Both the position numbers and the translations under genes were made by a program. 24,098 nucleotides of DNA from a bacterium (GTDB taxonomy: Bacteria; JAJVIF01; JAGGVT01): assembly GCA_021157815.1 (NCBI GenBank), contig JAGGVT010000020.1, positions 1 to 24,098 of the forward strand, written 5' to 3'. Below are positions 11,737 to 23,889 of the stretch, piece by piece; position 1 is the stretch's first letter, and the number at the start of each line of letters is the position of its first letter. The notes under the pieces were generated by a model. That model did no database searches. It saw only the letters and a program-made list of their open reading frames with translations, and had not been told where the DNA came from.

Positions 11737-11785
11737 GTTAAGACTCCATGTTTTGTTGATGAAGCATTATAAAAAGAAAAAAAGT

Positions 11786-11822
11786 AATATGTAACCCGGC
11801 GTCCCTTCGCCGGGGTATTGCA
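11786..11822 (+). repeat. Dispersed CCCGGCG hairpin, copy 1
   Basis: Arms CCCGGCG/CGCCGGG surround TCCCTT. The 37 bases recur in inverse orientation at 16087-16123 with one difference. It lies just upstream of rpiB and next to the 45-bp tandem array. Confidence 0.85.
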
Positions 11823-11830
11823 TGAATTAT

Positions 11831-11962
11831 CCACCATTTTCCCCCGGTTAAGGGAAACCGGGTTACATGTTTTAGCCACCATCTTTCCCCGGTTAAGGGA
11901 AACCGGGTTACATGTTTTAGCCACCATCTTTCCCCGGTTAAGGGAAACCGGGTTACATGTTT
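11831..11962 (+). repeat. 45-bp tandem repeat, about 2.9 copies
   Basis: Units start at 11831, 11876 and 11921. Each contains a CCCGG...CCGGG palindrome with a 7-base stem (CCCGGTT/AACCGGG) followed by TTACATG. Because 45 is a multiple of three, all minus-strand frames stay open and give spurious repetitive ORFs. Units abut without spacers, so this is not a CRISPR array. It fills the gap between the YfhO-family gene and rpiB. Confidence 0.9.
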
Positions 11963-16063: not shown

Positions 16064-16086
16064 TAGTAAGTGATTATATCAATCCG

Positions 16087-16123
16087 TGCATTACCCCGGC
16101 GAAGGGACGCCGGGTTACATATT
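16087..16123 (-). repeat. Dispersed CCCGGCG hairpin, copy 2
   Basis: The inverse complement of 11786-11822 over 37 bases with one mismatch. The stem is CCCGGCG (16095-16101) with CGCCGGG (16108-16114). It lies 24 bp after the aspartoacylase-like stop and may also end or stabilise that mRNA. Confidence 0.85.
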
Positions 16124-16140
16124 CCTGGTTAGAAAATCCA

Positions 16141-16367: not shown

Positions 16368-17996
16368 ATGAGTTTTTTCAAATCAGCGCTTGTAATGTGT
16401 GTCGCAATATTGATGTTTACGGGATGTGTCCAACAGGAAACAGGCTCGGTTGAACAATCAAAATATCCTGAGATTTATCGATTCGCGATGGATACAGATG
16501 CCCCTACTCTCGATCCCGCGATGGTTACCGACACAGTCAGCGACAAGGTAATACGCGACATTTTCGACTGCCTGATTAAATTCGACAGCGACATGAATTA
16601 CGTTCCGGTGATTGCCGAGTCATGGATTGCTCCCGAAGCTGGCGGAACTGAATGGATATTTAATCTCCACAAGGGAATCAAATTCCACAATGGACGTGAG
16701 ATAACCGCTAAGGATGTCGAGTATTCCCTTACTCGCGTTCTAGATCCTGAAACAGCGAGTCCGCGCACATGGGTGCTTAATATGATAAAAGGCGCGAAGG
16801 CTTTCATTGATGGTGAAGCTGAAACTGTTGAGGGAATTGAAGTTCTTGACAACTACATCATTAAGATAACTCTTGAAACGCCGTTCGCGCCATTTCTGGG
16901 ATGCCTTTGCATGTCAACGTGCTCTGTGATTCCTCGTGAGGAAATCGAAAAACTGGATGACCAGAGTGAGTTTTCGCTCAATCCGATCGGCTCAGGCCCT
17001 TTCATGTTTAAGAAATGGGTTCCGGATAATGAAATCGTTCTTGTTGCGAATCCTGATTATTTTGAAGGAGCTCCCAAACTAAAAGGCGTTACATACAGAA
17101 TAATTAAAGAATCGATGGCACGAGTTCAGGAATTTGAAAATGGAAATGTAGAGCATACTGATATTCCCCCACAGGAACTCGACAGAATTCTTGAGGATCC
17201 GGTGTTGTCGAAACTGGTGGTAAGGACATCGCTGCTGGATGTCTATCACATGGGATTCAACTGCAATGAGGAGCCGTTCAAGGATAATATCGATTTGCGC
17301 AAAGCGTTCAATTACGCAGTTGACAAGGAACATATCGCGAATAACATTCTTAAAAATAACATGGAGGTTGCCAAAGGATATATCCCGCCAAGGATGCCGA
17401 ATTACAAATCACAGGCGGAAGGATATGAGTATAGTCCGGTTGTGGCATCTGAATATCTCGAGAAAGCGGGCTACCCCGAGGGCAATGGACTTGAACCGAT
17501 TACGCTTTACATTGACAACGATGAAATCCACAGGCGAATCGCGGAATCCGTTTCCAACGATCTGAGGAAAATCGGAGTGGAAATTAGCATTCGCCAGATG
17601 GAGTGGGGCGCGTTTCTTGATGCTGTCGATGAGGGTGAGGCAAAATTCTTCCAATTGACATGGCTGGCTGATTATCCCGACCCGGATAATTTCCTCTTCG
17701 TTCTCCTTCATACAGACAATTGGGGCAAACCAGGAAACCAGACCCTTTTCTCAAATCCTGAATTTGACCAACTTACCAAACAAGCGCAGATCGAAACAGA
17801 TTGGGCGGTACGCCATGAGCTTTACATCAAAGCGGAATCAATCGTAATGGAGGAATGTCCGTGGCTGATTCTGTTTACCAACCGGTGCAACATACTGGTT
17901 CAGGATTATGTCCGCGATTTGGATATAACCGCGCTTGACAGATCGCCTCGGCTTCCGAATGTTGAGTTGGAAAAGGTTTGGTTTGGCGAGGAATAG
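16368..17996 (+). CDS. ABC transporter substrate-binding lipoprotein (peptide/nickel family 5)
   Basis: A 542-residue extracytoplasmic solute-binding protein of the DppA/OppA family, which captures peptides or similar ligands for an ABC importer. The signal peptide MSFFKSALVMCVAILM ends in the lipobox FTGC with C20 lipidated. Mature landmarks follow the family: TDAPTLDPAMVTD (43-55), WIFNLHKGIKFHNGREITAKDV (in two parts, 96-117), NPIGSGPFMFKKW, and LRKAFNYAVDKEHI. GGAGG at 16356-16360 is seven bases from the ATG. No permease or ATPase genes are adjacent, so it is an orphan that must use a transporter encoded elsewhere. It converges on the pepF-like gene, an oligopeptidase that could process imported peptides, but they are not co-transcribed. 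Confidence 0.92.
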   Translation: MSFFKSALVMCVAILMFTGCVQQETGSVEQSKYPEIYRFAMDTDAPTLDPAMVTDTVSDKVIRDIFDCLIKFDSDMNYVPVIAESWIAPEAGGTEWIFNLHKGIKFHNGREITAKDVEYSLTRVLDPETASPRTWVLNMIKGAKAFIDGEAETVEGIEVLDNYIIKITLETPFAPFLGCLCMSTCSVIPREEIEKLDDQSEFSLNPIGSGPFMFKKWVPDNEIVLVANPDYFEGAPKLKGVTYRIIKESMARVQEFENGNVEHTDIPPQELDRILEDPVLSKLVVRTSLLDVYHMGFNCNEEPFKDNIDLRKAFNYAVDKEHIANNILKNNMEVAKGYIPPRMPNYKSQAEGYEYSPVVASEYLEKAGYPEGNGLEPITLYIDNDEIHRRIAESVSNDLRKIGVEISIRQMEWGAFLDAVDEGEAKFFQLTWLADYPDPDNFLFVLLHTDNWGKPGNQTLFSNPEFDQLTKQAQIETDWAVRHELYIKAESIVMEECPWLILFTNRCNILVQDYVRDLDITALDRSPRLPNVELEKVWFGEE

Positions 17997-18045: not shown

Positions 18046-18070
18046 CACCACGCTAAAGCATGGTGTTATT
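18046..18070 (+). terminator. Weak candidate terminator after the substrate-binding protein gene
   Basis: CACCACGC (18046-18053) pairs with GCATGGTG (18058-18065) around TAAA with one mismatch, followed by TTATT. A T-rich tail is mostly missing. A separate perfect palindrome with arms CAGAGGGTT/AACCCTCTG (18102-18121) lies beyond it. Confidence 0.3.
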
Positions 18071-18148
18071 GCATAACATTGTATATTAAAAAATAAAATA
18101 GCAGAGGGTTTTAACCCTCTGTGGAGATTTTCGAATCATCAATAGCTC

Positions 18149-18250
18149 GGGTGCCGCCCACACATCACGTCTTTTTGTGATTTGTGGGTGAAATGCGTAA
18201 CTTCGCAACATGTCACCCATAAAGCCGAGACGGCTGTATGGGCGGCACCC
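18149..18250 (+). repeat. 102-bp cloverleaf-like element, copy A
   Basis: The ends GGGTGCCGCCCA and TGGGCGGCACCC are perfect 12-base inverted repeats. Inside are three consecutive hairpins: CACACATCAC/GTGATTTGTG, GGGTGA/TCACCC and AGCCG/CGGCT. The same 102 bases recur inversely at 23788-23889 with five differences. It lies between the convergent substrate-binding protein and pepF-like genes and carries no ORF. Confidence 0.9.
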
Positions 18251-20264: not shown

Positions 20265-20374
20265 TGTCATTCTGAGCGAAGCGAAGAATCTATGTGCTTC
20301 TGCATTCATGATTAAATCTGAAGATAGATATTTATGTTACCGCGAATAGATTCTTCGCTTCGCTCAGAATGACA
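20265..20374. repeat. Perfect 29-bp inverted repeat
   Basis: Arms 20265-20293 and 20346-20374 are exact inverse complements (core GAGCGAAGCGAAGAATCT) around 52 bases. Nearby, TTAAACCTGAAGATAGAGAT and TTAAATCTGAAGATAGATAT form a diverged direct repeat. The rest of 20082-20491 has no gene I can support. Confidence 0.9.
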
Positions 20375-22318: not shown

Positions 22319-23602
22319 TTAATCCAGTTTGGAAAAATCAAGTTCCAATTCAATTTTCCTTGCATCATTCACTTCTTCAATTAATTCATCGATATCCTCA
22401 TGCAGGAATCCCTCGCCTGTCTTTACGCGGCTGGATTTCTCCACATGCCTGCTGCCGGACATTATTTCCGATTTAATCTGCTCATCGAGCAAATCTATCT
22501 TGGATTTCGCAATCGCTGTATATTCAGCATCACCAAGAGTTTCAAATTTCCTCGCGAGTTCTTTTGTCAGTTCAATATTACCTGAAAGTTTATCAAGCGC
22601 AAGCCTGAGTTGTTCGAGAGCTTTATCATTTTCACCTGATTTAACCATCACATCCGCGAGTTCATTTCTCAATAAGGGCTTAATGCCAGCGTCATCACAA
22701 ATATCAACGGATTTCTGAAGGTTTCTTTTGATATCTTCAAGCAAAGCATCATCCTGTGAATATTCAAGCTCCTTGGAAATTATTCTTGCCATGAAATAAA
22801 ACGCGAAAAAATCACGTTTGCCTTTCTTCTTTAGATATTTTTCGAGGGTTTTACAGGCATCGGGCACATTATCGGAGAAATACATAATCAGCGATTTGTA
22901 GAATCCGTTATTTATTCGAACATTCCACTCCTCCGACATCTTATTCTCAATAAGCCTGTTTGCTTTACTGAATGGAATTGCAAAGTAAAGAACTGTCGCT
23001 TTTACCCATTCAGTGCCGTCATCATCAGCGCCTTTGTCATAAACCTTGAAAAAATAGACTCGTTTATCCCTTATGCTGATCGATGGTTTTGAAATGCCAC
23101 CGTTTTCCGTCTCCCACAAAACCACATCCCATTCCGGTATTTTGCCTTTGATTATTTCCTGCGGAGCTTTTGCGGTCTCAAGATCAAACTCCTCGACGAT
23201 TTCATCAATTCCAGCGCCTTCGTTGAATCGCGAATAAATCAGGTTAAGTTTGTCATTCATCAACTCAAGCGCGAATTCCTCCAGTTCTTTTCTGTCAATA
23301 TCCACCCCGGGCTGATTTAATCCCATCTTCCTGATTTCCCTGTTAATGCTGATAAAACGGAAAAAGAACAGGTCATCCAGCGATGGCTGGTAAAAAATCC
23401 CGTATTTGCTTCTGGCTTTATCAACCACAAATTTAACGCGTGTTTCCACATTCACCAGGTATATTGACTCAGCGTTGACATATCCAATGATCTTTTTTTG
23501 TCCTGTCTCATCGCTGCTCCCGGATAGATTCGCACCATTGGTACATCCCGAAAGACTCAAAACCAGAATAATCATCGAAAAACAAATCGCATATATACGC
23601 AT
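22319..23602 (-). CDS. SurA/PpiC-like lipoprotein with TPR-like C-terminus, paralog 2
   Basis: A 427-residue lipoprotein: signal MRIYAICFSMIILVLS and lipobox LSGC with C20. The domain order matches its neighbour: a SurA-like N-terminal segment (ETGQKKIIGYVNAESIYLV), a weaker parvulin-like region ending in NGGISKPSISIRDKRVYFFKV (in two parts), then TPR-like helices (about 230-375, e.g. NDKALEQLRLALDKL). It has an extra acidic tail (EDIDELIEEV...LELDFSKLD). Identity to the neighbour looks low overall but runs end to end. GGAGG is 12 bases before the ATG (complement of 23616-23620), rather distant. Being first in the direction of transcription, it may be co-transcribed with paralog 1 through the structured gap. 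Probably a membrane-anchored extracytoplasmic folding or assembly factor. Confidence 0.68.
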   Translation of the reverse strand: MRIYAICFSMIILVLSLSGCTNGANLSGSSDETGQKKIIGYVNAESIYLVNVETRVKFVVDKARSKYGIFYQPSLDDLFFFRFISINREIRKMGLNQPGVDIDRKELEEFALELMNDKLNLIYSRFNEGAGIDEIVEEFDLETAKAPQEIIKGKIPEWDVVLWETENGGISKPSISIRDKRVYFFKVYDKGADDDGTEWVKATVLYFAIPFSKANRLIENKMSEEWNVRINNGFYKSLIMYFSDNVPDACKTLEKYLKKKGKRDFFAFYFMARIISKELEYSQDDALLEDIKRNLQKSVDICDDAGIKPLLRNELADVMVKSGENDKALEQLRLALDKLSGNIELTKELARKFETLGDAEYTAIAKSKIDLLDEQIKSEIMSGSRHVEKSSRVKTGEGFLHEDIDELIEEVNDARKIELELDFSKLD

Positions 23603-23673: not shown

Positions 23674-23787
23674 GGTTCGAGTGAATAAATGTAAAAAACA
23701 CGCAATTAAAGATAATAGCAAAGGGGTTAAACAAAGTAGAGGGTTAAAGAGGATATCGGGAAAGGCGTCAATCTGATTCAAAATGTC

Positions 23788-23889
23788 GGGTGCCGCCAAT
23801 ATAGCCGTCTCGGCTTTATGGGTGACATATTGCTAAGTTACGCATTTCACCCACAAATCACAAAAAGACGTGATTTGTGGGCGGCACCC
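23788..23889 (-). repeat. 102-bp cloverleaf-like element, copy B
   Basis: The inverse complement of 18149-18250 with five mismatches over 102 bases and no indels. The first inner hairpin is perfect here (CACAAATCAC/GTGATTTGTG), while copy A has one mismatch. The outermost ten bases of the two ends pair fully; the inner part of the closing stem differs from copy A. It lies about 190 bp upstream of the lipoprotein pair. Confidence 0.9.

Follow-up and report, generated by a model that had tools for sequence, protein, structure and literature searches.

A GTGC-footed variant of the REPIN/RAYT system in a bacterium of a barely sampled phylum

Introduction

The foot of a canonical REP reads GT[AG]G, and the residues W94, Q95, E100, H101 and R104 of the Escherichia coli TnpA-REP protein contact the tag (PMC6006769). 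In CGTC-tagged REPs, by comparison, one end of the palindrome bears an unpaired CGTC and no transposase is associated, and REPs as a class can also function at the RNA level (PMC3733652). Here we report on a 24,098-nucleotide stretch of bacterial DNA (hereafter the window) in which an earlier note, made from the letters alone, had described a 102-bp repeat in two copies. We conclude that the 102-bp unit is a REPIN (also called REP doublet or BIME), consisting of two inverted REP modules and a variable spacer of ∼21 nt. The REPIN/RAYT type of system is already known, and it is the GTGC recognition tag that departs from the usual GTAG/GTGG. Because the architecture is that of a REPIN/BIME (PMC3116915, PMC6006769) but the GT[AG]G and CGTC definitions do not apply, we named the unit a GTGC-footed variant.

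Results

The two copies in the window were said to lie in opposite orientation, and this was borne out by their alignment, which showed 95% identity with five differences and no gap. Copy 1 occupies positions 18149–18250 on the forward strand, copy 2 positions 23788–23889 on the reverse strand. The terminal inverted repeats are perfect in both cases (GGGTGCCGCC/GGCGGCACCC) and, as described, both copies are intergenic: the convergent genes on either side of copy 1 end at 17996 (+) and 18270 (−), and copy 2 precedes the start of a gene at 22319–23602 (−) by ∼186 bp. Alignment scores revealed no arms of a host element beside copy 1, which is therefore a free REPIN. Copy 2 (alignment row L016, host class −/R1) is abutted by a single arm at 23749–23787 (−), a remnant of the right arm (R1 type) of a ∼197-bp host element (E 9.7e-7 for the match to the host right arm), the other arm being missing. 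Folding of both strands, which the earlier note had recommended, yielded strong structures on either strand of both copies, beyond chance. RNA folding gave −51 to −58 kcal/mol, with z scores of −7.6 to −9.6 against dinucleotide shuffles, none of which equalled the native sequence, and folding with DNA parameters gave z scores of −6.3 to −7.5.

When the modules were folded singly as DNA, both types adopted the same structure. GGGTGC stays unpaired, and the hairpin has a basal stem of 8 bp, a mismatch in an identical position, an upper stem of 5 bp and a loop. Since both halves fold alike on their own, the 102-bp unit reads as a type-1 module, a spacer and an inverted type-2 module. In copy 1, the type-1 module (18149–18191, +) comprises the unpaired GGGTGC followed by the hairpin CGCCCACA-c-ATCAC / GTGAT-t-TGTGGGTG. 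The spacer (18192–18212, +), of subfamily A, corresponds to the variable alignment columns and contains a weak small hairpin. The inverted type-2 module (18213–18250, −) has the GGGTGC foot and the hairpin CGCCCATA-c-AGCCG / CGGCT-t-TATGGGTG, the upper stem of which shows compensatory changes across the family. The corresponding modules of copy 2, placed by sequence and alignment, are found at 23847–23889 (type 1, −) and 23788–23825 (type 2, +). What had been described as terminal inverted repeats are the facing feet and stem bases of the two modules, and the middle arm of the proposed cloverleaf consists of the paired 3′ ends of the modules together with the spacer.

The two-module structure was examined across 52 full copies. 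Its cells were paired in 95.9% of cases, as compared with 94.6% in shuffles and 35–50% in controls in which the structure had been slid along the alignment. Double-changed cells numbered 27 as against 10.8 in the shuffles, and none of 500 shuffles reached 27, a comparison that gives no strict probability because the copies are mutually related. Examples of compensatory change are the third hairpin, where GCCG/CGGC became GCCC/GGGC in 10 copies, and the basal pair C13-G36, which became T-A. The four-armed cloverleaf with three inner hairpins that the earlier note had described, with module helices paired in 94.7–99.6% of cells and the small spacer helix in 77%, is one of two near-equivalent foldings. 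It scores almost as well as the two-module folding, and the pairing counts choose neither. What favours the two-module folding (plus outer stem) as an account of the anatomy is that the type-1 half exists separately.

Several variants of the unit were observed. In subfamily B the spacer, ATTACTGCGAAGTCATGCAATTTC, looks like that of subfamily A in reverse complement, as though the middle arm had been flipped (examples are L020:521–622, L032, L037, L040, L104–L107 and L172). At L039 and L108 the type-1 loop CGTCTTTTTGTG is swapped for CGCGAAGCGGG with the lower stem kept, and at L028, L079, L086 and L087 the right end of the REPIN is replaced by a common CCCTCGATAAACTCGGGATCTACGAGCGGC, resulting in a chimera with another palindromic repeat. 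In the window itself, the unoccupied palindromes AGCAGAGGGTTTTAACCCTCTG and CACCACGCTAAAGCATGGTG lie just left of copy 1, at 18100–18122 and 18046–18065, the former also scoring as a terminator-like site; at other sites these palindromes are occupied at their centre by the 197-bp element. The arms of a perfect inverted repeat of 29 nt, TGTCATTCTGAGCGAAGCGAAGAATCTAT, lie at 20265–20293 and 20346–20374, 52 nt apart.

The 3.2-Mb genome, assembled in 221 contigs, contains at least 52 distinct full copies of 98–103 nt. The sequence GGGTGCCGCC occurs 68+70 times (138) in the whole genome, as compared with 2+1 (3) for the backward control, and paired perfect 10-bp ends occur 44 times versus never for the control. 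The copy census is a lower bound, as it was compiled from searches and retrieved stretches, and several contigs end in such repeats. No DNA-level match to the repeat was found in the 58 other genomes searched. In a 418-kb sample with gene positions taken from simple ORF calls, most tags lay between ORFs and 8 tag sites fell within such calls. Around the REP sites, the genes were in tandem in 11 cases, divergent in 2 and convergent in 2, counts too small to speak of a bias. Inverted REPs separated by a variable spacer over ∼100 bp, a high and mainly extragenic copy number and a RAYT gene flanked by the same REPs are thus all features of this family, and the foot is GTGC in both modules in place of the GT[AG]G of the GTAG super-family. 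The prospect raised in the earlier note that only the two window copies exist, with homologs breaking all the inner stems, was checked and did not materialize.

In addition to the full copies, ∼21 sites carry a single type-1 module, just GGGTGCCGCCCACACATCACGTCTTTTTGTGATTTGTGGGTG plus a piece of the spacer. Two of these adjoin a transposase gene, and another is truncated where its contig ends. The foot (5′ end) of the single modules is exact and their 3′ side is ragged, REPIN homology ending 1 to 53 nt beyond the module. Single modules are nearly always of type 1, 21 such cases standing against one clear type-2 module and one variant. This pattern fits one-ended insertion or abortive events starting from the type-1 foot; truncation after insertion may also have produced such modules. 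At L174:1250 (G000:C158, near a contig end), a type-1 module is followed by the last bases of the RAYT gene described below and shares the outer flank of that locus, representing a second, partial copy of its 3′ part.

Nine genes in the genome match Pfam Y1_Tnp. One of them is located on another contig than the window (G000:C84:16586–17134) and encodes a protein of 182 aa, which scored 92.8 bits against the NCBIfam model NF047646, REP-associated tyrosine transposase (cut-off 80), and matched Pfam Y1_Tnp (PF01797). It is a single-domain Y1 protein in which the HUH motif (H61-V-H63) and the catalytic tyrosine in its Y-x-x-NP context (Y139-IHNNP) are intact, as in RAYT/TnpA-REP proteins. A type-1 module ends 20 bp before the ATG of this gene, and an inverted type-1 module starts 10 bp after its stop codon, which is the classic RAYT layout. 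Together with the at least 52 full copies, this bracketing supports the suggestion in the earlier note that a transposase encoded elsewhere in the genome moves the family. Used alone as a query, the protein gave no match among solved structures; with a clade profile, the best solved structure was E. coli TnpA-REP (4ER8; E 1.2e-9). No RAYT homologues were found on plasmids.

Two other RAYT genes, on contigs C182 and C85 (L117, L118), have their own, different REPs in the form of GTAACCCGG-type flanking hairpins. REP hairpins of the GTAACCCGGCGTCCCTTCGCCGGGG type, like those around these two genes, are also present in the window at 11783–11962 and 16070–16126, where the stretch 11818–11962 forms a 45-bp tandem repeat. 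The other six Y1 genes (L111–L116) mostly encode longer proteins, and no REPIN module was found beside any of them. Three of the six have inverted repeats on both sides (e.g. AAAGGGGACGGACACTTTTT and AATAGGGACAGTCCCC) that are unrelated to the REPIN; such an arrangement is described for TIR-associated tyrosine transposases. An assignment of the present unit to the TIRYT elements (group-1 Y1, non-hairpin TIRs, GGGGWSAS) was rejected, as the modules beside the gene form hairpins and the motif does not occur. Likewise, it was not assigned to the CGTC-tagged REPs, since CGTC occurs inside the hairpins only and a RAYT is associated.

According to alignment scores, ∼41 of the 52 full REPINs have at least one arm of a larger element adjoining, and at least 11 copies are free, in unrelated flanks. 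The commonest host measures ∼197 bp (194–200 bp), has 16-bp ends GAGCCTGTCGGGAAAG and is represented by 33 elements in the genome (for example L005:1445–1641, L015:693–888, L098:470–663, L100:625–821 and L198:18427–18624). A perfect 4-bp direct repeat, mostly TTAA, TTTA, TTTC or TAAA, was found at 17 of these 33 elements, as compared with 4.8 in shuffled pairings, and for 23 of the 33 the insertion point is the dyad centre of a small palindrome, versus 7.8 in shuffled pairings, several unrelated palindromes being involved. The length of this host is nearly constant and its interior is exchangeable, holding a REPIN, pairs of G/C-rich hairpins or other REP-like pairs. A second host of ∼287 bp, with ends CTCGACTTTCGACATTT, also has a REPIN inside (L024, L071–L073, L075, L082, L093, L173 and L176), and several assembly contigs end in it. 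No arms like those of the REPIN-bearing elements were seen in an empty state, without a REPIN. A search for an autonomous transposon with host ends gave one long candidate (L210:3503–5102), which was rejected, as it holds a seryl-tRNA synthetase-like gene and no transposase. The spacer subfamilies track the host arms (A with R1, C with R2, B with Ry/Rz and D with dL/dR), which indicates that host and REPIN were multiplied together.

When the foot and both stem bases were used as a pattern, 6 stretches were retrieved from only two further genomes among 84,980 species. Both belong to the same class, being G001 (LacPavin_0920_SED3_MAG_49_9) and G003 (Planctomycetota CSMAG_1386), and together they encode six relatives of the RAYT, with 46–60% identity. 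All six relatives have flanking modules with quite different hairpins and feet reading GGGTGC, CGGTGC or GGGTGG; the GTGG foot was seen at L132 only, the remainder having GGTGC. At five loci the modules are found on both sides in inverted orientation, and at L138 downstream only; those of two relatives (L127 and L135) fold weakly. Neither a RAYT of this type nor a module was found in a third class relative, G002, whose genome is nearly complete. The motif GGGYDRN is invariant in the clade; the protein stretch that contains it, around W117–N126, corresponds to the part of E. coli TnpA-REP with tag-contacting residues. A distant homologue from another lineage has a GTGG-footed hairpin on both sides. 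The apparent link between the RAYT clade and the GGTGC foot is one of co-occurrence, and this co-occurrence rests on few independent lineages because the phylum sample consists of four genomes.

Discussion

A REPIN family with its module anatomy and compensatory changes, a RAYT gene bracketed by its modules and relatives of that gene accompanied by the same foot all occur here, and RAYT-driven single-strand transposition of a non-autonomous REPIN is therefore the best explanation, one that we consider very probably correct. In single-stranded DNA, such as the lagging-strand template, the modules would fold, and the RAYT, as an HUH endonuclease, would bind the foot and hairpin. Its tyrosine would then cleave beside the REPIN, which would be joined at a new site without a target-site duplication. 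No target-site duplication was visible around the free copies, which is compatible with the RAYT mechanism. Many copies have in addition multiplied as passengers of larger elements. The non-canonical foot, the weakly folding modules at L127 and L135, the host arms beside most full copies and the small number of independent lineages count against this explanation.

The weight of such passengers is what a different reading turns on, in which the RAYT made the REPIN long ago and the present copies are mainly cargo of the ∼197- and ∼287-bp transposons, with another transposase acting on their ends. The predominance of copies with host arms, the pairing of spacer subfamily with arm type, the hosts with other interiors and the excess of perfect 4-bp direct repeats at the host elements all speak for it, and the host, not the RAYT, may indeed have spread most full copies. 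Against this stand the free copies in unrelated flanks, the presence of the same REPIN inside two unrelated hosts, the exact 5′ end that single modules have kept and the intact RAYT gene; moreover, a transposase with the host ends was not found. As a full account we regard the cargo reading as rather unlikely, and it supplements the main explanation without replacing it. The RAYT-driven explanation is also to be preferred over one in which the 102-bp unit itself is a MITE of a classical (DDE) transposon, mobilized via 10–12-bp terminal inverted repeats. The 44 occurrences of perfect 10-bp inverted ends and the high copy number would suit such a MITE, but free copies show no target duplication of constant length, unlike the ∼197-bp host. 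One half of the unit is commonly found alone, and single modules are present on both sides of a Y1 transposase gene whose relatives are flanked by the same foot, so that we consider this origin extremely improbable.

The earlier note had proposed a small structured RNA as its other alternative, and the support for this lay in foldability. A small RNA, a bidirectional terminator or an mRNA-stabilizing element retained for its RNA function would account for the very stable fold on both strands, the compensatory changes and the intergenic position, copy 1 lying between convergent genes. However, the two strands fold equally, and compensatory changes would be expected no less in single-stranded DNA that a RAYT recognizes. 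At the gathering and E-value thresholds of Rfam, the window yielded tRNAs only and the repeat itself no match, its miRNA matches being far below the threshold. The repeat has no terminator-like site, the nearest one lying in the neighbouring palindrome, no promoter-like site was found, and the repeat is absent from the other phyla tested. Conservation for an RNA function thus appears highly improbable, although a secondary effect at the RNA level would be in keeping with a REPIN.

Beyond the RAYT-driven transposition itself, we tentatively propose a broader scenario, which we consider possible rather than likely. RAYTs of the GGGYDRN clade (W-[QK]-x-GGGYDRN) may have shifted their tag from GT[AG]G to GTGC, the foot being kept across genera with the hairpins diverging. 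The RAYT would act mainly from the type-1 end and leave one-ended insertions that are exact at the 5′ side and ragged at the 3′ side, and the REPINs would ride in palindrome-targeting MITEs, amounting to a three-level nesting of mobile palindromes. If this is true, the tag shift would be a case in which the guide sequence has changed in nature, and the cleavage dinucleotide should be altered with it. By the guide rule reported for Marinomonas TnpA-REP (PMC8266576), a GTGC foot would be predicted to shift this dinucleotide from CT, presumably to GC. The natural series of RAYTs and tags, with GTGC at the GGGYDRN proteins and GTGG at the distant homologue, offers material for testing the guide-sequence model of cleavage. 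Furthermore, our findings extend the REPIN/RAYT systems to a phylum that has barely been sampled (four genomes), and the one-ended fragments and hosted REPINs bear on the origin of single REPs and on the RAYT-dependent spread of repeats when the RAYT gene stays put.

The closest parallel is provided by the REPINs and RAYTs of Pseudomonas fluorescens SBW25 (PMC3116915), where likewise an extragenic inverted doublet of ∼100 bp has conserved ends and a variable spacer with compensatory changes, the RAYT gene is flanked by the same REPs and single REPs are present. Unlike in SBW25, the foot described here is GTGC instead of GTAG/GT[AG]G, the two modules differ in type, the singles are nearly as conserved as the paired modules and keep the type-1 end, and most doublets are found inside other elements (PMC3116915). 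The E. coli REPtron with its Y and Z REPs and TnpA-REP (4ER8) (PMC6006769, PMC8266576) shares the combination of two REP types of one family as a heterodimer, the long stem with a conserved mismatch, the single REP-flanked RAYT gene and the HUH-Y1 protein, and it differs in the foot. Where the E. coli protein contacts the tag, the present clade reads W-[QK]-x-GGGYDRN, and R104 is not conserved. With respect to the RAYT subclasses (PMC6006769), the H-x-H, W-Q and YIHNNP motifs resemble those of 2.4 and 2.6, a likeness by features and not by a tree. The three G-C pairs at the base of the REP stem are reminiscent of subclass 2.4 and the REPs without GT[AG]G of subclass 2.6, while, in contrast to both, the HUH motif is [ED]H[VF]H and not NH. 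Finally, the joining of REP units to unrelated inverted repeats in many copies is reminiscent of the composite REP/stem-loop TIRs of Pseudomonas putida and P. fluorescens (PMC3733652). In contrast to these composite elements, a whole REPIN is here contained in an element that has 16-bp ends and a 4-bp target duplication and is itself centred in small palindromes.
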